From positions 1 to 40,949 of the forward strand of contig CAIKHN010000032.1 of assembly GCA_903827265.1 (NCBI GenBank): a stretch of DNA of 40,949 nt, read 5' to 3'. A program made the translations under genes and the position numbers. The DNA comes from Candidatus Uhrbacteria bacterium (GTDB lineage Bacteria; Patescibacteriota; Patescibacteriia; UBA9934). Of the stretch, positions 5,254-39,130 are shown piece after piece (position 1 is the stretch's first letter; each line of letters begins with the position of its first letter). The notes below the pieces were generated by a model. It did no database searches. It was not told the origin of the DNA and saw nothing but the letters and a program-made list of their open reading frames with translations.

Positions 5254-5638
5254 GATTATCGTCGAGCGGAAGGGTCGGATCGCCGTGCTGTTTCGTGTGG
5301 AGTATTTTCGGCTAGGGGTTGCGCTGACGATTGGGTGTATTTTAGGTTCGTTTGTGCTTATTCTCTGGCGGTTGTTTCCTGAGATTTACGGAAAGGACAT
5401 TATTCCTCTCCATTACAATATTCACTACGGTGTGGATTGGACGGGTGCGTGGTGGCAGATTTTTGTGTACCCCGTTGCCGCGGCAGTGATGAGCGTGGTG
5501 AATGTTGGAATCGCGATGGGTATTATTCATCGTGAGCCAATGCTCGCGAGGGTGGTGCTCGTGGGAACCGTGCTTCTCTCGGTATTTCTCTTTTGCTCCA
5601 CTGTTTTTGTGGTGCTTATGAATATTGTTTATGGTTGA
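5246..5638 (+). CDS. three-helix membrane protein of unknown function
   Basis: 130 residues with three hydrophobic segments (about 20-40, 68-90 and 100-125). Start 5246 is preferred over the in-frame 5186 because it overlaps the NifU-like stop by 8 bp in the same way that mraY overlaps this gene's stop. Unrecognised family. Position directly before mraY in a tight operon suggests an envelope role, but this is inference from context only. Confidence 0.75.
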   Translation: MSKIIVERKGRIAVLFRVEYFRLGVALTIGCILGSFVLILWRLFPEIYGKDIIPLHYNIHYGVDWTGAWWQIFVYPVAAAVMSVVNVGIAMGIIHREPMLARVVLVGTVLLSVFLFCSTVFVVLMNIVYG

Positions 5639-6695
5639 TGCTTTTGCAATCACAAAAATTCTCTTGCTTGGTACAGCGAGTTTCGTTGCTGCGATTTGGT
5701 GGACGCCGCTTTTAACGCACGTGTTGTATCGATTCCGATTAGGGAAGTCGATTCGTAGCGCCGTGAAGGCGCCGATGTTTGCAAAACTACATGCAAAAAA
5801 AGCTGGCGTACCAACGATGGGCGGCGTTCTTGTTTGGGGAACGGTTGGCGCAATGGCGGTATTTTTTTCTGCGTGTCACATCTTTTTTCCAAATAGTGCA
5901 CTTGCCGAGCTCAATTTCCTTTCGCGTTCGCAAACATGGTTGCCGGTTGCTGCGCTCGTTGCTGCCGGAATTATTGGTCTTGCCGACGACTTCATGAACG
6001 TGTTTCGCGTGGGGCCTGATGGTGGAGGTCTCCACGTACGGCATCGTTTGGCATTGTATGCGATCGTTGCAGCCGTTGGCGCTTGGTGGTTTACCGCAAA
6101 ACTTGGATTTGATTCGTTGCACGTTCCGTTCGTTGGCGATGTTGTTGTTGGTGTTGTGCCGTACGCCCTTTTCTTTATTGGCGTTATCGTTGCTACATCA
6201 TTCTCTGTGAATCAAACTGATGGTCTTGATGGTTTGGCTGGTGGAACGCTGGCAAGCGCATTCGGCGCGTACTCGCTTATTGCGGTTATGCAGGGACGGT
6301 ACGATCTTGCGGCATTTTGTGCGGTGGTGATGGGTGCGCTATTCGCGTTCCTTTGGTTCAATATTTACCCTGCGCGGTTTATTATGGGCGACACTGGTGC
6401 AATGTCGCTCGGCGTTACGCTCGGTGTTGTTGCCATGATTACCAATCAGCCACTATTACTTCCGTTAATTGGATTTATTTTTGTGCTGGAGATGGTGACG
6501 ACTATTTTGCAGATGGGTTCAAAAAAGCTTTTTGGGAAAAAGATTTTCCTCATTGCGCCAATTCATCATCACTTTGAGGCGCTCGGTTGGCCAGAGCCAA
6601 AGGTCGTGATGCGCTTTTGGGTAATTTCCTGGATTACCGCTGCTCTCGGTGTGCTTCTCGCGTTGCTTGATGTCGCGGTGAAGATTTCGTCATAG
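5631..6695 (+). CDS. mraY: phospho-N-acetylmuramoyl-pentapeptide transferase
   Basis: 354-residue polytopic membrane enzyme that transfers phospho-MurNAc-peptide to undecaprenyl phosphate, making lipid I. Conserved features visible: VPTMGG near residue 60, LADDFMN (the Asp-Asp pair) near 117, NQTDGLDGLAGG near 195, GDTGAMSLG near 255 and the PIHHHFE loop near 305. ATG 5631 is preferred to TTG 5625; it overlaps the preceding stop by 8 bp. ftsW follows after 2 nt. Confidence 0.96.
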   Translation: MVDAFAITKILLLGTASFVAAIWWTPLLTHVLYRFRLGKSIRSAVKAPMFAKLHAKKAGVPTMGGVLVWGTVGAMAVFFSACHIFFPNSALAELNFLSRSQTWLPVAALVAAGIIGLADDFMNVFRVGPDGGGLHVRHRLALYAIVAAVGAWWFTAKLGFDSLHVPFVGDVVVGVVPYALFFIGVIVATSFSVNQTDGLDGLAGGTLASAFGAYSLIAVMQGRYDLAAFCAVVMGALFAFLWFNIYPARFIMGDTGAMSLGVTLGVVAMITNQPLLLPLIGFIFVLEMVTTILQMGSKKLFGKKIFLIAPIHHHFEALGWPEPKVVMRFWVISWITAALGVLLALLDVAVKISS

Positions 6696-6697
6696 CT

Positions 6698-7816
6698 ATG
6701 TCCGTTTTTGCAGGCATCCGCAACGCAGACCGCACCTTTCTTGCGCTTCTTGGCGGATTGCTTTTGCTTGGACTCGTGTTGCTTGCATCAGCGTCTGGCC
6801 CAACGGGATTCGTAAAGTTCCATGACACGTATTACTTTTTAAAGCATCAAATGATTTTCGGTTTGGTGCCTGGAGCGATTGGGTTTTTTCTTGCCAGTCG
6901 TGTGCCGTACGGAACGTATCGTCGGTTTGCGGGAGTGATGTTGATTATTTCCATCGTCCTATTGCTCTCGGTGTTTATTCCTGGGCTTGGAACTGATCTT
7001 GGCACGTTTGCTCGACAGTGGATTGTGCTTGGGCCGTTAACGCTTCAGCCGTCGGAACTCGTGAAGTTAACATTTTTGTTTTACATTGCGGCATGGATGG
7101 AAAAGCGAACCGAACATGAAATTCGTGACGTGCACAGTGGACTTATTCCGTTTGCCATTGTGCTTTCGGTGGTGATGGGGTTGCTCTTGCTTGAACATGA
7201 CACTGGAACACTTGGCGTGATTGTTATCATGGCGCTTGGCGTGTATTTCGCCGCCGGAGCGCCGTTTCGATACTTTGCGTTGTTCGGCACGAGTGGCGGC
7301 GTGCTTCTTGCGCTGCTCCTCACATTCTCGTCGTATCGTCGTGAGCGATTTATTACGTTTTTGCACCCAGAATTAGATCCGCTGCATACGGGGTATCACA
7401 TCAATCAAGCGTTGCTTGCTATTGGGAGTGGGGGATTTTTTGGAAGAGGTTATGGGCATAGCTTGCAGAAGTTTCAGTATCTTCCGGAAGTTGCCGGCGA
7501 TTCGATTTTTGCGGTGATTGGTGAAGAGCTTGGTTTTTTGTTAACGACGGCATTCCTTGTGTTGTACGTTGGATTTTTACAGCGTGGTTTTAAGGTTGCT
7601 GCAGCATCTCGTGACGCATTCGGGAGATATCTTGCCGTTGGAGTGATGTCGTGGATTGGTGCACAAGCGTTTTTCAATATTGCTGCGATGGTTGGTGTGC
7701 TTCCAATTACGGGCGTGCCGCTTCCGTTGGTCAGTTACGGAGGAACGGCGCTTGCCGTAACGCTTACCGCACTTGGTGTTGTTGTGAATGTATCGTCGCA
7801 TTCCAAAAATGTATAA
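6698..7816 (+). CDS. ftsW: FtsW/RodA-family lipid II polymerase
   Basis: 372 residues with about ten membrane segments (SEDS family glycosyltransferase). The family motif PLVSYGGTA lies near residue 347, and the large loop with an IGEELGF-type segment precedes it. Assigned to FtsW rather than RodA by position between mraY and murG; the motif alone does not separate them. The stop codon overlaps the -10 box of murG. Confidence 0.92.
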   Translation: MSVFAGIRNADRTFLALLGGLLLLGLVLLASASGPTGFVKFHDTYYFLKHQMIFGLVPGAIGFFLASRVPYGTYRRFAGVMLIISIVLLLSVFIPGLGTDLGTFARQWIVLGPLTLQPSELVKLTFLFYIAAWMEKRTEHEIRDVHSGLIPFAIVLSVVMGLLLLEHDTGTLGVIVIMALGVYFAAGAPFRYFALFGTSGGVLLALLLTFSSYRRERFITFLHPELDPLHTGYHINQALLAIGSGGFFGRGYGHSLQKFQYLPEVAGDSIFAVIGEELGFLLTTAFLVLYVGFLQRGFKVAAASRDAFGRYLAVGVMSWIGAQAFFNIAAMVGVLPITGVPLPLVSYGGTALAVTLTALGVVVNVSSHSKNV

Positions 7817-7825
7817 TTCGTTGGT

Positions 7826-8905
7826 ATGAATCCTCCAGAGCACCACATTGTATTTACCGGCGGAGGGACGCTTGGTCCGGTTACCCCACTTCTTGCGGTT
7901 GCTGCAGAATGGCGGAAACGCGATCCGCATGTGAAATTCACGTGGATCGGAACACCTGACGGGCCAGAACGACTCGTGGTTGAATCTGCGAAAATTCCGT
8001 TTCTTCCACTTTCGGCACCGAAATTTGATCGCACTCGTCCGTGGACGTGGGTTATTGCGCCGGTTCAGCTTGTGGTAAGCACGATTCGTGCCGGACGAAT
8101 GCTCGTGAGCCTCGAGCCAACCATGGTGATGACTGCTGGGGCGTACGTAAGCGTTCCTGTTGCGTTTGCCGCGGCAATGATGCGCATTCCGTCGTGGGTA
8201 CATCAGTTCGATATTGTTGTTGGCCTAGCGAATAAGCTCATGGCGCCGTTTGCAACGCGCGTGAGTGTGACGTGGGAGGAGAACGCTTCAAGTTTTGGTT
8301 CGCGAAAAACGTTTGTTGTCGGTGCAATGATTCGTCCGTTCTTGCGATTTGGTGATGCGCAAATTGCACGAGAACTTTTCGGGCTCTCTGCGCAGAAGCC
8401 AACGGTCCTTGTGATTGGCGGAGGAACAGGCTCGGCTCGAATGAACGAACGCTTTGCGGTGATTGGACCGGAGCTTGTCCGGCACGCAAACGTGATTCAC
8501 ATTACCGGTCGAGGAAAGATGCTTACGTCGCTCGAGACTCTTGGTGACGGATACGTTGCGCGAGAATTCGTCGGAGAAGGGATGGCCGATATTTTGGCGC
8601 TTGCGGATGTTGTGGTGTGTCGAGCAGGGATGGGAACTCTTGCAGAAGTTGTCGCGCTTGGAAAACCAACGATTCTTTTACCCCTTGAAGGTCAGCAGGA
8701 AGCAAACGCAAAGGCGCTTGAGGATCGAGGTGCCGTCGAGGTTTTGAAGCACGTCACCCCACAAACATTGCTGCAGTCGATTTTGCGTTTGGTTGAAAGC
8801 TCAGAACGACGAGAGGCGCTCTCCGCGAAAGTTCGAACCGTATTTCCAACAAACGGCGATGAACGGATCGTGCACGAGGCGTTGCGGATTTTGAATCTGA
8901 ACTGA
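7826..8905 (+). CDS. murG: UDP-GlcNAc:undecaprenyl-PP-MurNAc-peptide GlcNAc transferase
   Basis: 359 residues, GT-B fold, makes lipid II from lipid I on the inner membrane face. Glycine-rich N-terminal loop (GGGTLGPVTP), HQFDIVVGLAN in place of the usual HEQN motif, second loop GGGTGSARMN, and the donor-site region CRAGMGTLAE with EGQQEANAKALE. The motif variants are relaxed relative to E. coli MurG. TATAAT at 7812-7817 ends 8 nt before the ATG, so it may also be transcribed alone as a leaderless mRNA. Confidence 0.95.
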   Translation: MNPPEHHIVFTGGGTLGPVTPLLAVAAEWRKRDPHVKFTWIGTPDGPERLVVESAKIPFLPLSAPKFDRTRPWTWVIAPVQLVVSTIRAGRMLVSLEPTMVMTAGAYVSVPVAFAAAMMRIPSWVHQFDIVVGLANKLMAPFATRVSVTWEENASSFGSRKTFVVGAMIRPFLRFGDAQIARELFGLSAQKPTVLVIGGGTGSARMNERFAVIGPELVRHANVIHITGRGKMLTSLETLGDGYVAREFVGEGMADILALADVVVCRAGMGTLAEVVALGKPTILLPLEGQQEANAKALEDRGAVEVLKHVTPQTLLQSILRLVESSERREALSAKVRTVFPTNGDERIVHEALRILNLN

Positions 8906-12830: not shown

Positions 12831-14288
12831 ATGGATCTCTCCAGTATCCACAATTTTCAAGACGCAGTGGTGACAGTGATGGGTTTAGGCCGATACAAAC
12901 GGGGGAGCGGAATGGGCGCAACAAAATGGTTGGTACGTCATGGCGCGCAAACCGTTATTACCGACCTGAAAAATGCTGACGAGCTCAAGGAGTCGGTCAC
13001 GATCATCATGGATTGGTATCGTCGATATCGAGAATTGTATCCAGATCGTACGCTGTACCAACCGGTTTTCGTACTGGGCGAGCATCGACAGGACGATTTT
13101 GTAAATGTTGACTGTGTTGTACAGAATCCTGGCGTACCGAGCGAGTCGGAATATATTGTTGCCGCAAAAGAACAAAAGGTTTCTATTGAATCCGACGTGA
13201 GTTTATTTTTCCGTTTTTACCAGCAACCGATTATTGCCGTGACCGGAACCAAAGGGAAGACAACAACAACGCTTTTGCTCGGGGAAATGATGAAGCGAAA
13301 AGACGAAAAGACGGTTATTGCGGGGAACGTTAAGGTGTCGCCGCTTGAGCATCTCGACGAGTTAATCGAGGAACCAAATGCTATCCCAGTTGTTCTTGAG
13401 CTTTCATCATGGATGCTTGAGTCGTTGCCGCAAACATTTACCGATATCAAGCGCGGCCCAGCGATATCGATTCTGACAAACGTATATCCGGACCATTTGG
13501 ACCGGTATCCGTCATTCGATGCCTATGTTGCAAGCAAGCGAATTATTTTTGAGCACCAAATGCCCGATCAGTACACACTATTGAATGCTGACCATGAGTT
13601 AGTAAAAACCATGGCGCCACTCGTAAAGGGAAAACTCTTTTGGTTTTCGAAAGTCCCACGCGAAGAAAACGGATGTTACATGAAGGATGGGAATGTGGTG
13701 TTCCGGAATAACGGCGAAGAAATTATTGTTGTTCCGGCTGCCGATGTTGCACTGAAGGGCGATCACAACGTTGAAAATATTTTGTCGGCAACATGTGCCG
13801 CTATGCTGTCCGATGTTGCGGTCAGCGACATTGCTGATGTGTTGCGTCATTTTGAGGGCGTTGTTGATCGACAAGAAATGGTGAGAGAGATCGATGAAAT
13901 TACGTATATTAACGACACCGCGGCGACTGGCCCGGATGCGGTGATTGCGGCGTTGCGACGGTTTGGAACCGACAAGAAAGATATCGTCCTTATTGCCGGA
14001 GGTGTGAATAAAAAGCTTGCATATGAAGGGCTGGGGGAGGAAATTGTAAAGGTGTGTAAAGCGGTTTTTCTGTTTCCTGGCGATGCGTCGGATTTACTGA
14101 ATGCAGCCATCAAGGGCCGGATTCCCGTAACGATGGTAAAAAACATGAAAGAAGCCGTACAAGGCGCTCGTGCTCTTGCTGTTGGGGGCGATACGGTGCT
14201 GCTTTCTCCTGGCGCCGCAAGTTTTAATCTCTTCCGCAACGAATTCGAACGCGGTGAACAGTTCCGTGAGGAAGTTCGGAATTTGTAA
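12831..14288 (+). CDS. murD: UDP-N-acetylmuramoyl-L-alanine:D-glutamate ligase
   Basis: 485 residues. ATP-binding loop VTGTKGKTTTT (about residue 136), TNVYPDHLDRY in the central domain, and the C-terminal LLSPGAASFNLF segment that matches the LLSPACASxDxF of MurD. Adds D-Glu to UDP-MurNAc-Ala in the cytoplasm. The N-terminal Rossmann domain is longer than usual, with an inserted helix (ESVTIIMDWYRRYREL). TATCAT at 12816-12821 ends 9 nt before the ATG and overlaps the stop of the ATPase gene. Confidence 0.95.
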   Translation: MDLSSIHNFQDAVVTVMGLGRYKRGSGMGATKWLVRHGAQTVITDLKNADELKESVTIIMDWYRRYRELYPDRTLYQPVFVLGEHRQDDFVNVDCVVQNPGVPSESEYIVAAKEQKVSIESDVSLFFRFYQQPIIAVTGTKGKTTTTLLLGEMMKRKDEKTVIAGNVKVSPLEHLDELIEEPNAIPVVLELSSWMLESLPQTFTDIKRGPAISILTNVYPDHLDRYPSFDAYVASKRIIFEHQMPDQYTLLNADHELVKTMAPLVKGKLFWFSKVPREENGCYMKDGNVVFRNNGEEIIVVPAADVALKGDHNVENILSATCAAMLSDVAVSDIADVLRHFEGVVDRQEMVREIDEITYINDTAATGPDAVIAALRRFGTDKKDIVLIAGGVNKKLAYEGLGEEIVKVCKAVFLFPGDASDLLNAAIKGRIPVTMVKNMKEAVQGARALAVGGDTVLLSPGAASFNLFRNEFERGEQFREEVRNL

Positions 14289-14388
14289 TCGCTCCGTGGT
14301 GACTCGGGACGACTGTGCGCTCGTTGCGCTCCGTACGGGGGGCCTCCCTCGGTGCCACCCGTTGATTCGTTCGCTTCGCGAATTCTCT
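14289..14388. repeat. probable degenerate copy of the dispersed quasi-palindromic repeat
   Basis: This spacer between murD and murE contains, in order, TGGTGACTCGGG (14297-14308), CGACTGTGCG (14310-14319) and TCGTTGCG (14321-14328). The same three strings occur in the same order on the minus strand of the repeat at 18615-18731, where about 57 nt separate the first two. It is GC-rich and not coding in a credible way. Confidence 0.5.
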
Positions 14389-15717
14389 ATGCCTCTCCTT
14401 CGTAAAATCAAATCACTCGTGCCTTCATCAATGATTGCGCAGTATCATCATACGCTCGCGAGCCTTGCGGAAATCGTTTACCGCCATCCGTCAAATGAGA
14501 TGATCGTGGTCGGTGTGACGGGAACAAACGGCAAATCATCGACGGTGAACTTTTTGGCGCAAATTCTTACTGCGCTTGGTTATACGGTTGGGTACACATC
14601 AACCGCGGGATTCAACATTGCGGGGAATGACGTCGTAAATGCCATGAAGATGACGATGCCGGGGCGCTTTACATTGCAGCGATTGTTGAGGTCGATGGTG
14701 AACGCTGGGTGTACGGTTGCAATTGTGGAAACGTCGTCGCAAGGCTTAATTCAACATCGGCACATTGGGATTAATTATGACGTTGCGTTGTTTACGAACC
14801 TTACGCCTGAGCATATTGAGGCGCACGGTGGATTTGAGAACTACAAAAAAGCGAAAGGTATTTTGTTTAAGCACTTGACGGCTCGATCGAAGAAAACGAT
14901 CGGAGGGAAATCGATTTCAAAGGTGAATGTGGTGAATGCCGACGATGAACACGCAACGTATTATAGATCGTTTCGAGCGGATCGGCATATTGGCTTTGGC
15001 ATGAGTGGAACGCCGAGCAACGATCGGCTCGTCGCGTACGTCGAACATCATGATTTGCAGCATGGTGTGACGTTGTCGGTGAACGGAGTCGAGACGTCAC
15101 TTGCGCTTGCTGCGGATTTCGAGCACAAGAATGCACTTGCGGCTGTTGCTGGTGCTGTGGCGATTGGTGAGCCGCTTGCAGATGTGATGCGTGCAGCGGG
15201 ACTGCTTCATTCCGTTCCTGGTCGATTTGAAATGATTGATTGCGGCCAACCGTTTACCGTGATTGTCGATTACGCGTACGAGCCGTTTGCGCTGTTGGCG
15301 TTGTATCGTTCGCTTGCGCCACTAAAAACTGGGCGCGTGATTGGCATTCATGGTTCAGCAGGTGGAGGCCGCGATGTTGCGCGACGAACGGAGATTGGGC
15401 GCGTTGCTGCGCAAAACGATGACATTGTTATTGTGACGAATGAGGATCCTTACGACGAAGATCCACGCACAATTATTGAGGCTGTTGCTGCCGGAGCTCG
15501 TGCACATGGAAAAATTGATGAGCAAACACTATTCATGGTGAACGATCGACGCGAAGCAATTGCAAAAGCAATGTCCCTCGCGAAGGCAGGAGATGTCGTT
15601 TTGGTGACAGGAAAGGGATCCGAGCCAGTCATGGCAGTTGCAGGAGGAAAAATTCCATGGGACGACCGAACGGTTGTTCGCGAAACGCTGATTGCGAATG
15701 GATATACGGCAGTATGA
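14389..15717 (+). CDS. murE: MurE-like Mur ligase lacking the N-terminal domain
   Basis: 442 residues, about 50 shorter than E. coli MurE. The ATP loop GVTGTNGKSST is already at about residue 41, so the N-terminal UDP-sugar-binding domain is absent. Central features: ETSSQGL and FTNLTPEH; the C-terminal domain has VTGKGSEP. Expected role: add the third residue to UDP-MurNAc-Ala-Glu. Where MurE has DNPR (diaminopimelate-specific) this protein has EDPY, so the amino acid added cannot be predicted. A longer in-frame ORF back to 14170 overlaps murD and is rejected. The PH-domain gene overlaps the stop (ATGA). Confidence 0.88.
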   Translation: MPLLRKIKSLVPSSMIAQYHHTLASLAEIVYRHPSNEMIVVGVTGTNGKSSTVNFLAQILTALGYTVGYTSTAGFNIAGNDVVNAMKMTMPGRFTLQRLLRSMVNAGCTVAIVETSSQGLIQHRHIGINYDVALFTNLTPEHIEAHGGFENYKKAKGILFKHLTARSKKTIGGKSISKVNVVNADDEHATYYRSFRADRHIGFGMSGTPSNDRLVAYVEHHDLQHGVTLSVNGVETSLALAADFEHKNALAAVAGAVAIGEPLADVMRAAGLLHSVPGRFEMIDCGQPFTVIVDYAYEPFALLALYRSLAPLKTGRVIGIHGSAGGGRDVARRTEIGRVAAQNDDIVIVTNEDPYDEDPRTIIEAVAAGARAHGKIDEQTLFMVNDRREAIAKAMSLAKAGDVVLVTGKGSEPVMAVAGGKIPWDDRTVVRETLIANGYTAV

Positions 15718-32321: not shown

Positions 32322-33788
32322 TTAATGCTTCGGTGGAAGTCCGTAGCCTTTGGGTGGAATACCCGGGGGCAAGCCGACGTTGTTTGGTTTTGGTTCGTTG
32401 GACTGGCCGTCGTTTTGCGGCGTAGCTTGCATCATTGGTGCACGATTTTCCAGGTTCTTAAACGACGCATGCGTTGCGTCCCAGAAGAGCGGCACCATGC
32501 CGGTTGGGCCGTTACGATGTTTTGCGATATGCACTTCGGCTTTGGTTTTTTCTTCAGGCGTGAGTTCTTCCGGCTGATAGTTTCTGTCGGCGGCCTTGCG
32601 GTATAAGAACATCACGACGTCGGCGTCCTGCTCAATGCTTCCTGAGTCACGAAGGTGAGCGAGTTTTGGAATGGCAGGTTTTGTCATTTCCACTGCACGA
32701 GAAAGCTGTGCGAGCGCAAGCACTGGAACGTTCAATTCACGAGCGATCTGTTTTAATCCACGAGAGATTTCTGCGACTTCTTGCACGCGGTTATCTGTTT
32801 TCTTTCGTGCTTCCATGAGCTGTAAGTAGTCGATAACAATCATGGAAAGGCCATGTTCGCTCTGGAGTCGTCGTGCTTTCGTACGAATACTCATGATGGT
32901 TGCAACCGGCGAGTCGTCAATAAAGATTGGCGCTTCTGACAGTTTGCCGAGCGCTTCGCCAATGCGAGGGAAGTCGTCGGCGCTTTCGCTTAACCGACCA
33001 GTACGAAGTTTCCACAAATCCACGTTCGCCTCGGCGGAAATCATACGATCAACCAACTGTTCTTTACTCATTTCAAGACTAAAGAATCCAACAGGTTTTC
33101 CGGTGCGAAGCGCTACGTTACGAATAATGTCCATGGCGAATGACGTCTTTCCAACGGAAGGTCGGGCGGCAAGAATGATGAGGTCGGAGTTTTGCAGTCC
33201 TGCAAGCAAGTTATCGATGCCGAAAAATCCTGTTGCAACGCCGCGGAGCTTGCCTTTTTCTTTGTGTAACTCGTCGATACGATCGAACGCTTCGGTAAGT
33301 AACGTGTGAAGTGGCGTGAACGATTGTTTGATGAAGTTTTGCGAAACGTTAAAAAGTCGGCGTTCAGCCTCGTCCAGCAACACGTCGACGTCTTGTGATT
33401 CGTCAAAACCAAGTTCAGTAATTTCGCTTGCGGCAGAAAGAAGGCGCCGTAACGCAGCTTTTTTTGCAATGATTTCGGCGTGATGCGCAACATGCGCTGC
33501 AGTCGTGGTGACGTTGGTGAGTTCAACAAGCGCGGTGCGTCCGCCGATTTGTTTGAGAACACCTTTTTCTTCGAGGCGGTTGCCGAGTGTTAAGACGTCG
33601 ATCGGCTCGTGCCTATCCACGAGCTCGAGCATGACTTCATACAGAATGCGATGTGAATCCTTATAAAAATCTTCAGATCGTAATGCGTCGCCGATTTTTA
33701 ACAGCACGTCCTGATCAAGCAAAAGCGCGCCAAGGAGCGAACGCTCGGCTTCAAGATTGTGAGGAGGAATTCGCCCGACGTCGGTCAT
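32322..33788 (-). CDS. dnaB: replicative DNA helicase DnaB
   Basis: 488 residues. N-terminal domain begins PPHNLEAERSLLGALL; the RecA-like domain has Walker A ARPSVGKTS (208-216), FFSLEMSKEQL and the Walker B VIDYLQLM. The C-terminal tail (about 455-488) is Pro/Gly/Asn-rich and low complexity. Start at ATG 33788: TATGCT (33795-33800, minus) ends 6 nt before it. An interrupted palindrome overlaps this promoter. Confidence 0.96.
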   Translation of the reverse strand: MTDVGRIPPHNLEAERSLLGALLLDQDVLLKIGDALRSEDFYKDSHRILYEVMLELVDRHEPIDVLTLGNRLEEKGVLKQIGGRTALVELTNVTTTAAHVAHHAEIIAKKAALRRLLSAASEITELGFDESQDVDVLLDEAERRLFNVSQNFIKQSFTPLHTLLTEAFDRIDELHKEKGKLRGVATGFFGIDNLLAGLQNSDLIILAARPSVGKTSFAMDIIRNVALRTGKPVGFFSLEMSKEQLVDRMISAEANVDLWKLRTGRLSESADDFPRIGEALGKLSEAPIFIDDSPVATIMSIRTKARRLQSEHGLSMIVIDYLQLMEARKKTDNRVQEVAEISRGLKQIARELNVPVLALAQLSRAVEMTKPAIPKLAHLRDSGSIEQDADVVMFLYRKAADRNYQPEELTPEEKTKAEVHIAKHRNGPTGMVPLFWDATHASFKNLENRAPMMQATPQNDGQSNEPKPNNVGLPPGIPPKGYGLPPKH

Positions 33789-33799
33789 ATGCAAAGCAT

Positions 33800-36900: not shown

Positions 36901-37290
36901 TCAGTTGCCGTCGGGCTGGGAGCTGGCGTCTTCGTCCAAGCATTCATCGACCGCCTCGTCTGGCGTTTTGGCGTAGCCTTGCAGGTAGCGACGGTTGGTG
37001 CAGGCTCGAATGTCGATGCCCATCTCGTGCCACATGGCCATGTTGTCCTTGCGCCATGCGGCGAAGGTGGTTTTGCGCTCGAAGAGATCGTTTGGCTCGA
37101 TGACCGCGCTATCGGTTTGGCTGGCGGTATCGGGCGTCTTGATTTCGTTGAGCTTCGTAATCGGCTTGGCGGCCGTTACGAGCGGAACCACTTCGTGTGA
37201 TGGCTCGAAGAGCGTGACGATGCCGAGGAACACGATCCCGACAGTAGCGAGAAAAAACAATGCGTTGCGGAGTGAGGAGAACGGGATCAA
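36901..37290 (-). CDS. GC-rich orphan, single-pass membrane protein
   Basis: 129 residues, unrecognised. One membrane helix (about 8-27: NALFFLATVGIVFLGIVTLF), then a hydrophilic domain with Cys at about 98 and 117 and an acidic C-terminus. The start is TTG 37290, chosen because CGGAG (37296-37300, minus) lies 5 nt upstream in the same CCCGGAGTCCC context as at 21827; a TTG at 37308 is in frame but overlaps that SD. The mRNA leader has an 8-bp hairpin (37320-37339). Confidence 0.75.
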   Translation of the reverse strand: MIPFSSLRNALFFLATVGIVFLGIVTLFEPSHEVVPLVTAAKPITKLNEIKTPDTASQTDSAVIEPNDLFERKTTFAAWRKDNMAMWHEMGIDIRACTNRRYLQGYAKTPDEAVDECLDEDASSQPDGN

Positions 37291-37355
37291 GGGGACTCCG
37301 GGGAACAAGGTTGGAGCGTGATTCGTGAGGACACGAATCGGGAGGAACGGAATCT

Positions 37356-37384
37356 ACGATACCAGAAGTGGCGGTTATCCACAA
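37356..37384 (-). promoter_or_regulatory. promoter of the orphan 36901-37290, with overlapping DnaA box
   Basis: Minus strand: -35 TTGTGG (37379-37384), 17 bp, -10 TATCGT (37356-37361). TTATCCACA at 37375-37383 (plus strand) is the consensus DnaA box and covers the -35. Confidence 0.6.
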
Positions 37385-37416
37385 GTTTTAGCCAAATTTC
37401 GTGAACTGGAGTGCCG

Positions 37417-37456
37417 AAGTGGTGTAAAGTGGGGCCATGAGGAGATAAGTGGGGAA
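37417..37456 (+). promoter_or_regulatory. MraZ-box array upstream of mraZ
   Basis: Four 10-bp-phased units: AAGTGGTGTA, AAGTGGGGCC, ATGAGGAGAT, AAGTGGGGAA. Three have exact AAGTGG; the third is degenerate. Helically phased GTGG/TGGG direct repeats are the known binding site of MraZ. A -10-like CATAAA lies at 37472-37477. Confidence 0.8.
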
Positions 37457-37487
37457 TCTCCCACCCGAACTCATAAAAAACCGCGTC

Positions 37488-37919
37488 ATGTTCCTTGGCC
37501 AATACAACCATACTATCGACGACAAAGGACGGCTCGCCGTTCCAATGAAGTTTCGAGAAGCACTCGCGTATGGCGCGGTGGTGACGCGAGGCTTGGACTC
37601 TTCATTATTCCTGCTGCCCTTGGAGGAGTGGGGCAAATTAGCAACATCGCTTGCGAATTTACCCTTAGGGCAGGCTAACGCACGTGCATTCGCCAGGCTC
37701 ATGCTTGCTGGGGCAATGGACGTGGTGTTGGACAAGCAGGGGCGGTGTGTCGTTCCGGAGTATTTGCGACAGTATGCAGGTCTCCGGAAAGACGTGGTGA
37801 TTGTAGGAGTGAATACGCGCCTCGAAATTTGGGACGCGGAAAAGTGGCAGACGTATGTGACGTCGATGGAGAAGGACGCGGAAACTATTGCAGAGAACCT
37901 CAGTTCTATGGGACTTTAG
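37488..37919 (+). CDS. mraZ: transcriptional regulator MraZ
   Basis: 143 residues, two AbrB-like DNA-binding halves: the first has DDKGRLAVPMKFRE, the second DKQGRCVVPEYLRQ. MraZ forms a ring and binds the direct repeats at its own promoter to control the division gene cluster. The start at 37488 (MFLGQYNHTID) fits the family; the longer GTG start at 37449 would lie in the operator. rsmH follows after 6 nt. Confidence 0.93.
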   Translation: MFLGQYNHTIDDKGRLAVPMKFREALAYGAVVTRGLDSSLFLLPLEEWGKLATSLANLPLGQANARAFARLMLAGAMDVVLDKQGRCVVPEYLRQYAGLRKDVVIVGVNTRLEIWDAEKWQTYVTSMEKDAETIAENLSSMGL

Positions 37920-37925
37920 CGCCCT

Positions 37926-38798
37926 ATGACCTCCGATTCCGCAAAAGTTCACATTCCCGTTCTTGCTCGCGAAGTGCTCGATGGCCTGGCATTGAAGCCT
38001 GGAAGTCGAGTTCTCGATGGCACTATCGGCCTTGGTGGACACGCAAAACTCATGCTTGCGGTAACGTCGCCAGACGGAGAGTTGGTCGGGTTCGATCGCG
38101 ATGATCGTAATCTCGCGGTTGCGAGCGAGCGATGCGCGGAGTTCGGTGATCGTGTGACGTTCATTCATGATTCGTTCGGGTCGATTAGGACGCGTGATTT
38201 TGGGACGTTCGATGGTATGCTCTTCGACCTCGGATTTTCTTCGGTACACGTTGACGACGCATCGCGTGGGTTTTCCTTTATGAAGGACGGGCCGCTCGAC
38301 ATGCGCTACGACACGCGCCAAGAACTTTCGGCCGAAACCATTGTGAATACATGGTCATTCGATGATCTCGTCACTATTCTCCGCCGTTTTGGCGAAGAAC
38401 CGCGAAGCGCGATTATTGCAAAAGCCATTGTCGACGCTCGACGTCAGATGCGAATCGATACGACGTATCAGCTCGCAGAAATCGTCGCAAGTGTGGTGCA
38501 TCGGACTGGAAAAATTCACCCTGCAACGAAAACATTTCAAGCGTTGCGCATTGTGGTGAATGATGAACTTGGAGAAGTTGAACGGGGATTACTCGCAGCG
38601 ATCGCCGCACTCAAGAGCGGTGGACGATGCGCGGTAATTACTTTCCACTCGCTCGAAGATCGTCTGGTAAAAAATCTTTTTAAAACTCAGGTTGGCCTGA
38701 AGCCAATAACCAAGAAGCCGATTATTGCCACAGAAGCCGAGATGAAAGAAAATCCGCGGTCACGAAGTGCAAAGTTACGTATCGTCGAAAAAATTTAA
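37926..38798 (+). CDS. rsmH: 16S rRNA (cytosine-1402-N4) methyltransferase
   Basis: 290 residues. HIPVLAREVLDGL start, SAM loop LDGTIGLGGHA (about 29-39), FDLGFSSVHVDD, GPLDMRYD and the C-terminal FHSLEDRLVKNLFK. Methylates C1402 in the ribosomal decoding centre. Classic second gene of the mraZ cluster. Confidence 0.96.
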   Translation: MTSDSAKVHIPVLAREVLDGLALKPGSRVLDGTIGLGGHAKLMLAVTSPDGELVGFDRDDRNLAVASERCAEFGDRVTFIHDSFGSIRTRDFGTFDGMLFDLGFSSVHVDDASRGFSFMKDGPLDMRYDTRQELSAETIVNTWSFDDLVTILRRFGEEPRSAIIAKAIVDARRQMRIDTTYQLAEIVASVVHRTGKIHPATKTFQALRIVVNDELGEVERGLLAAIAALKSGGRCAVITFHSLEDRLVKNLFKTQVGLKPITKKPIIATEAEMKENPRSRSAKLRIVEKI

Positions 38799-38806
38799 CG
38801 AATTGT

Positions 38807-39130
38807 ATGGAGGTACAAGGAGGGAAAAATATTTTCATTCGAGCGTTCAAAAATCCTCGCGTGATGAGCGCGCTGAGTGTTGGATGCATGCTGACGTTTG
38901 GTGTGCTCTATGTTGGCCAAGTGAATAGCGCGGCAACAAAGGGCTACGCCGTTCGCGAGCTGCAAGAGCAGAATGTGGAGCTTCGACACGAGCGTGATCG
39001 CCTTGACATGCAGATTGCAAAATTGCGGTCGCTCGATAGTGTGACGGCGCGCGAATCGTTTCTTGGTTTAAAAAAACTTGCACCATCAACATTTGTAAAG
39101 ACTGGTACTGATGTAGTGGCCGTGCGGTAA
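38807..39130 (+). CDS. ftsL: FtsL-like cell division protein
   Basis: 107 residues: short cytoplasmic start, one membrane helix (about 20-40), then coiled coil (RELQEQNVELRHERDRLDMQIAKL). Position after mraZ-rsmH is where ftsL normally lies; the sequence itself is only generally FtsL-like. ftsI does not follow; gpmI does. Confidence 0.78.
   Translation: MEVQGGKNIFIRAFKNPRVMSALSVGCMLTFGVLYVGQVNSAATKGYAVRELQEQNVELRHERDRLDMQIAKLRSLDSVTARESFLGLKKLAPSTFVKTGTDVVAVR

Follow-up and report, generated by a model that had tools for sequence, protein, structure and literature searches.

The mraZ locus and its upstream region

The window analyzed here, i.e. a stretch of 40,949 bases from a Candidatus Uhrbacteria contig, carries mraZ followed by rsmH, a short FtsL-like ORF, and a phosphoglycerate mutase gene (Table 1). 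In Bacillus subtilis, mraZ/yllB is the first gene of the ftsL operon. In the window, the mraZ product scores 140.5 bits against TIGR00242 (cut-off 98.35) and 122.7 against Pfam PF02381 (cut-off 23; two stretches), and aligns to solved MraZ along residues 1–139. DxxxR motifs in two AbrB-like halves are a trait of the MraZ family, and both are present in all 56 MraZ proteins of the order, including the one encoded here. The ORF downstream of rsmH has no Pfam match, and its assignment as FtsL is weak.

Annotation of the mraZ start at ATG 37488 fits the family better than the alternative GTG at 37449. This GTG falls in frame within box 4 with GAGGAG four bases upstream, and starting there would add 13 codons to mraZ. 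On the other side, the intergenic region is bounded by a divergent minus-strand ORF (36901–37308, 135 aa) without a Pfam or NCBIfam match, and its start lies 66 bp from a DnaA box that might also serve this ORF.

A second group of wall genes lies on the contig and strand of mraZ: mraY with ftsW-like and murG-like genes at 5625–8905, and murD with murE at 12831–15717. Among the first three, mraY scores above its own cut-off and the other two below theirs. Further FtsW/RodA-, MraY-, and Mur-ligase-like genes are found on other contigs. As such, an earlier sequence-only reading that described the remaining division cluster as dispersed is right for the genes on other contigs, but not for the mraY, ftsW-like, murG-like, murD, and murE genes that share contig and strand with mraZ at 5.6–15.7 kb.

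Table 1. Features at the mraZ locus, in window coordinates.
Feature	Position	Strand	Description
DnaA box	37375..37383	+	TTATCCACA, perfect consensus match, 33 bp before box 1
-35 place	37402..37407	+	TGAACT, poor match
MraZ box 1	37417..37422	+	AAGTGG; arrays conserved in genus, order, and phylum
Predicted -10	37425..37430	+	TAAAGT, from the order comparison; overlaps box 2
MraZ box 2	37427..37432	+	AAGTGG
MraZ box 3, degenerate	37437..37442	+	ATGAGG, without GTGG
MraZ box 4	37447..37452	+	AAGTGG, followed by GG
Small hairpin from box 4	37449..37464	+	GTGGGG-AATC-TCCCAC; no T run
mraZ	37488..37919	+	Start ATG 37488; TIGR00242, PF02381
rsmH (mraW)	37926..38798	+	PF01795, E 5.4e-96
ftsL-like short ORF	38807..39130	+	NF053549 FtsL 22.2 bits, cut-off 55

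A phased array of MraZ boxes

The four units upstream of mraZ follow one another on the plus strand in steps of exactly 10 bp, and both the positions and the phase claimed for them by the sequence-only reading are borne out by the letters. Boxes 1, 2, and 4 are direct repeats with a GTG core, the 10-bp period is exact in the window and reappears in relatives as peaks at 10, 20, and 30 bp, and the array sits at the mraZ promoter, with 35 bp between box 4 and the ATG. For comparison, the operator of Escherichia coli MraZ is a TGGG repeat. When the 179-bp intergenic region was shuffled 20,000 times with dinucleotides preserved, an AAGTGG triple spaced by 10 and 20 or 30 bp never appeared. One more AAGTGG, at 37366, does not keep the phase (it precedes box 1 by 51 bp) and is not conserved across the genus.

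Searched with zero mismatches, the four-box pattern has a single match in the Candidatus Uhrbacteria genome (954,851 bases), which is the mraZ array. Five further matches in this genome carry 3 mismatches each, and a backward control pattern yields 12 matches. A genome scan for further arrays had been proposed as a check on the original claim, and below 3 mismatches it returns nothing further, neither at the second wall cluster nor at the other wall genes. Two boxes alone would not be significant, because the count observed in a two-box search of the window (up to 2 mismatches) is reached by 9 of 100 shuffles. With 11-bp steps permitted, the window has another candidate, at 32333 on the plus strand, which scores 14/17, compared with 16/17 for the mraZ array. 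This is a four-unit GTGG-like run with an 11-bp step; it lies inside a reading frame, the reverse ORF 32322–33794, and is probably due to chance.

The array accompanies MraZ across the phylum

Of 59 close genomes, counting the window's own, 56 have a detected MraZ, and 55 of the 56 upstream regions were usable (L063, with 22 bp upstream, was dropped). Duplicates (L036–L039, L045, and L082) and a partial gene at a contig end (L202) were also removed. An array scoring at least 14/17 precedes mraZ in all 55 loci of the order, compared with 3 of 1100 shuffles. GTGG pairs 10, 20, and 30 bp apart occur 71, 49, and 58 times in the 56 regions, and shuffles average 0.61, 0.59, and 0.45. One locus, L013, was scanned over 650 bp upstream; the 537 bp between its box 4 and the mraZ start codon make the longest leader in the order sample. 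In the window's own genus, L009 has a leader about 130 bp longer with what seem, by eye, to be long inverted repeats, and the extra length looks like an insertion.

The phase is not absolute, as in 10 of the 55 order loci the best-scoring array takes 11 bp from box 2 to box 3. The place of box 3 is taken by GAGG, AAGG, TAGG, or CAGG in 17 of 22 loci of family f1, which makes the degenerate unit a trait of the lineage and not decay of the window's copy. The outcome named in advance as speaking against the claim was an array that had lost its phase or its sequence in relatives with MraZ, and what we find instead is an array retained throughout the order sample.

Whole-genome searches return a similar picture. 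In the 59 genomes, the four-box pattern has 38 zero-mismatch matches, of which 37 lie just upstream of a detected mraZ; the remaining one is at the end of a contig of G056, a genome in which mraZ was not found and the contig breaks at the array. With one mismatch there are 7 matches, 3 of them at mraZ and 4 elsewhere (two in G003, of the same genus), and the backward control has 2. We considered whether MraZ was lost within the order, but the three candidate cases look like gaps: G002 ends within mraZ, G056 breaks as described, and G050 is also without rsmH.

Beyond the order, the phylum sample comprises 108 of 157 MraZ-bearing genomes (28 loci plus 80, with the weakest matches mostly omitted) as well as L040 and L041. 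Here, 91 of 110 loci score at least 14 and 104 at least 13; shuffles reach these scores in 2 and 23 of 2200 cases. An exact three-box pattern was also searched in 20 other genomes of the phylum that have MraZ. It has 15 matches in 13 of them, all about 230 bp or less upstream of mraZ, and no match in the other 7. Among 33 genomes without a MraZ match, 20 were tested, 17 of which have rsmH over the cut-off; in the 16 usable rsmH regions, the weak L201 (186 bp upstream) and L205 (gene in two pieces) included, no array is found upstream of rsmH, and the highest score is 11. The exact three-box pattern occurs once in each of 2 of these 20 genomes (G166 and G137), and the match in G166 precedes an ORF that, by eye, resembles a transposase. 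The array thus accompanies MraZ and is absent where MraZ is not detected. In the small set of papers covered, judged by title and abstract opening, none deals with MraZ operators in Patescibacteria or the Candidate Phyla Radiation.

A DnaA box beside the array

The sequence-only reading recognized the MraZ array in this promoter but missed the DnaA box upstream of it. The 9-mer at 37375–37383 matches TTATNCACA, in which position 5 is free, and its letters are themselves given as the DnaA-box consensus (PMC8203912; this and the other articles are cited from excerpts). In the window, TTATCCACA or its reverse complement TGTGGATAA occurs once over both strands, and about 48 kb of other loci from the same genome, some of them overlapping, contain no TTATCCACA. 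In the window and three other loci of the genus, the 9-mer is invariant and at the same offset, whereas the intervening DNA up to the array varies.

In the 123 bp that precede the arrays, no 9-mer is shared by as many order loci as TTATCCACA: 28 of 55 have it letter for letter, and 42 with at most one mismatch (0.0% and 1.5% in shuffles). Its density in these 123 bp is 4.58 per kb, about 110 times the 0.042 per kb of the remaining sequence of these loci (120 kb), so the site is commoner than background. Its distance from the array is not fixed: it lies at -42 in 12 loci, and at -74 to -108 for 21 of 35 sites.

The same consensus reaches further into the phylum. Of 55 order loci, 41 have TTATNCACA on one strand or the other within the array or close to it, and 14 do not; of 104 loci from the rest of the phylum, the counts are 53 and 51 (6 of the 110, scoring below 13, were left out). 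In 28 of the 53 positive loci outside the order, it lies inside the array. For comparison, 28 phylum loci give a background of 0.09 per kb for it, and rsmH regions without MraZ contain it in 2 of 16 cases (2 sites in 6,936 bp).

One may ask whether DnaA is involved at all. MraZ may be the sole regulator acting through the array, with TTATCCACA being either an inverted, stray MraZ half-site or the site of another regulator. Indeed, TGTGGATAA contains GTGG, the MraZ core, and the exact 9-mer is absent from 27 of 55 order loci. Also, 6 of the 16 one-mismatch sites differ at position 7 and fit DnaA poorly, and five sites read TTATCCCCA, a poor fit to the DnaA consensus. However, 7 of the 16 differ at position 5 alone (TTATGCACA in 5 and TTATTCACA in 2), a change that destroys GTGG yet keeps the DnaA consensus, and TTATCCACA lies outside the array, which argues against a stray half-site. 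Further evidence comes from inside the arrays elsewhere in the phylum, where a T before GTGG is coupled with ATAA after it (28 cases with both; odds ratio 7.4, Fisher p 3e-9, over related loci and uncorrected for kinship). This coupling yields TGTGGATAA, i.e. a DnaA box atop a MraZ box, and it completes the DnaA box, not the MraZ box. We therefore consider a promoter without DnaA rather unlikely, and find it likely that DnaA binds at 37375–37383.

Promoter architecture and the sign of MraZ control

A scan for consensus sigma-70 promoters finds none at the window promoter, and the -10 in Table 1 is predicted from the comparison of order loci. In 44 of 55 of these, TA...T is found at the -10 offset over box 2, with TTG 17 bp upstream in 37 of them, and TTGAC occupies the -35 place in 37 of the 50 loci that have the -10 in register. 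The predicted transcription start in the window, placed from the -10 alone, is A37437, inside box 3.

With box 2 over the -10 and box 3 over the predicted start, negative autoregulation is the best reading of the array. A MraZ ring would bind the four boxes, all on one face of the DNA, and, once bound, would cover the -10 and the start region and so exclude RNA polymerase. MraZ would thereby hold the mraZ-rsmH-ftsL group at a set level. Binding of MraZ to the array is, in our judgment, very likely, and repression is probably the sign of the control. Autoregulation of this gene group had been claimed from the sequence, and it is supported, by inference, by the identity of the downstream gene as mraZ and by the way the array tracks MraZ.

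Alternatively, MraZ could bind these boxes and activate, as suggested for some mycoplasmas. In Mycoplasma gallisepticum, MraZ-linked filamentation is accompanied by higher FtsZ (PMC8475190), and the sign of MraZ control may differ in mycoplasmas (PMC8475190). Yet boxes 2 and 3 are positioned where a bound protein would block the polymerase, and in E. coli, MraZ is said to repress its own gene (PMC8475190). Activation by MraZ is thus an improbable reading of the window promoter.

DnaA as a proposed second control

We propose that DnaA would act on the mraZ promoter as a second control, most likely as an activator near -58. The window promoter has no good -35 and has a proximal DnaA box, and this combination recurs. 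Among the 50 order loci with the -10 in register, 13 promoters are without TTGAC, and 11 of these have a DnaA-like 9-mer (one mismatch allowed) between 46 and 22 bp ahead of box 1; with TTGAC, the count is 8 of 37 (Fisher p 0.0001; the test was designed once the data had been seen). When each genus contributes one row per state, a genus count being the sole handling of phylogeny, the proximal box is present in 6 of 7 cases without TTGAC and in 5 of 22 with TTGAC (p 0.0055). These sequence patterns suggest that DnaA stands in for the missing -35. The activator role itself is possible rather than probable, and the claim is tempered by B. subtilis, in which RsmH and PbpB, both encoded in the ftsL operon, are unchanged on replication arrest (PMC11019786).

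Overall, our main reading, to which we assign a probability of roughly 0.75, is that 37417–37454 is a MraZ operator at the promoter of its own gene, with the DnaA box as a second control. A broader proposal, held tentatively and at slightly under even odds, is that the mraZ promoter in Patescibacteria is a general junction of replication and division that is read by both DnaA and MraZ. The DnaA site would be an upstream activator site replacing a lost -35 in the window's genus and its like, and a box inside the array, with competition, elsewhere.

Hairpins and leader RNA

Alternatively, the array could act in RNA, with its last box forming one arm of a leader hairpin that serves as an attenuator or a 5' stabilizer. 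This reading draws on sister family f2, where a covarying hairpin takes its 5' arm from box 4 and has a T run behind it (L034:1942–1988, minus strand, and 23 further loci; alignment A1). A1 comprises 24 of 26 usable f2 loci, with L059 and L062 omitted for having another stem form. In this alignment, 98.7% of cells pair, compared with 32–52% in slid versions, and 44 cells are changed on both sides, compared with 11.6 in shuffles. A terminator-like form of the hairpin is found in 31 of 55 order loci, and the f2 sequences indicate that in this family a terminator-like element shares DNA with the operator.

The window does not resemble f2 in this respect. Its hairpin is no better than shuffled sequence (z -0.7 and -1.1), and no stable hairpin followed by a T run, as in an UpsM-like attenuator, lies between promoter and mraZ. 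Since the window hairpin is weak and without a T run, we do not propose attenuation here. Even in f2, the pairs with double changes number 4, which is not above shuffles (3.5; 263 of 500 reach 4). Further, the array is general in the rest of the phylum, but of the 110 loci sampled there only 2 have the strict hairpin, or 5 if the energy criterion is dropped. Two other stems are unsupported: an outer stem from box 3 to the region before mraZ reaches p ≤ 0.05 in 5 of 44 loci and p ≤ 0.01 in none, and a family-f1 hairpin whose loop would contain box 4 has a permutation p of 0.10 over 16 representatives. An array that acts in RNA is thus distinctly unlikely in the window. A leader peptide from the ATG in box 3 was also rejected, as relatives have GTG or ATA in its place. 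Outside the order, the last MraZ box forms a hairpin arm with a T run in L166 and L041, and without one in L157.

Least probable by far is a G-quadruplex in the G-rich run, of the kind reported at the Staphylococcus aureus mraZ promoter (PMC11796246), given that 37391–37470 holds no four-tract pattern with loops up to 7, even for two-G tracts, and that phase and GTGG are conserved rather than tract length.

A second, unrelated structured leader element is present in 12 of the 18 f1 loci outside the window's genus, 11 of which were aligned, with double changes in 11 of 18 pairs. It lies between the array and mraZ and consists of CGGGAAACUUCCCC, a covarying stem, and CAACYGCC (L010:1930–2011, minus strand, and 10 further loci; alignment A2, model R1). 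Beyond its 11 source loci, R1 matches L013 upstream of mraZ (E 0.0036) and has five weak matches elsewhere (E 0.001–0.0094); strong matches are found upstream of mraZ only, and there are none in the window's genus. Rfam has no match in 15 leader loci, and its matches in the window are tRNAs only.

Comparison with known systems

The sequence-only reading held that phased MraZ operators of this kind are known from other bacteria, and the cited systems bear this out. In the Burkholderia cenocepacia dcw operon, four 7-nt MraZ repeats with 3-nt spacers, i.e. a 10-bp period, lie over the start site of the mraZ operon and are bound by MraZ in EMSA (PMC7761207). The window array is alike in the number of repeats, their period, and the overlap with the predicted start site. 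By contrast, the B. cenocepacia array lies downstream of the -10, whereas box 2 of the window overlaps the predicted -10, and the excerpt makes no mention of a DnaA box (PMC7761207). In Mollicutes, MraZ sites are direct repeats of AAAGTG[T/G], which in Mycoplasma genitalium occur at mraZ only, a single occurrence like that in the window's genome (PMC8475190, citing Fisunov 2016). These organisms differ in being wall-less and in having a four-gene cluster, and a DnaA box is likewise not mentioned in the excerpt (PMC8475190).

Precedents for DnaA come from two species. At E. coli mioC, a MraZ site overlaps a DnaA box (PMC4446571), which resembles the composite sites found elsewhere in the phylum, and E. 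coli MraZ represses itself as proposed here (PMC8475190, PMC4446571). The E. coli overlap, however, is at mioC and not at mraZ, and no second operator was found in the window's genome. In B. subtilis, DnaA is bound at the ftsL promoter region (PMC8203912), and the ftsL operon includes rsmH and pbpB (PMC11019786), a gene setting like that of the DnaA box near the mraZ-rsmH-ftsL group of the window. The excerpts of both articles describe no order-wide, fixed layout of MraZ and DnaA sites (PMC8203912, PMC11019786). Finally, UpsM of Rhodobacter sphaeroides has an intrinsic terminator in the mraZ leader (PMC5089854). In this it is like the f2 relatives but not like the window, which has no such terminator; in f2, the 5' arm of the stem is a MraZ box.

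Implications for Patescibacteria

On its own, the MraZ array is a further case of a known operator form, one now seen to extend deep into the phylum. Joint control by MraZ and DnaA across Patescibacteria would be new, with B. subtilis as a precedent. The two elements also provide a sequence rule, i.e. a phased GTGG array plus TTATNCACA, that is applicable to any such genome. We know of no account of how these very small, mostly uncultured bacteria time their division. A regulator with one operator beside a conserved DnaA site would be a concrete, testable link from replication to division genes and, if true, DnaA and MraZ acting at one promoter would tie the copying of DNA to division.
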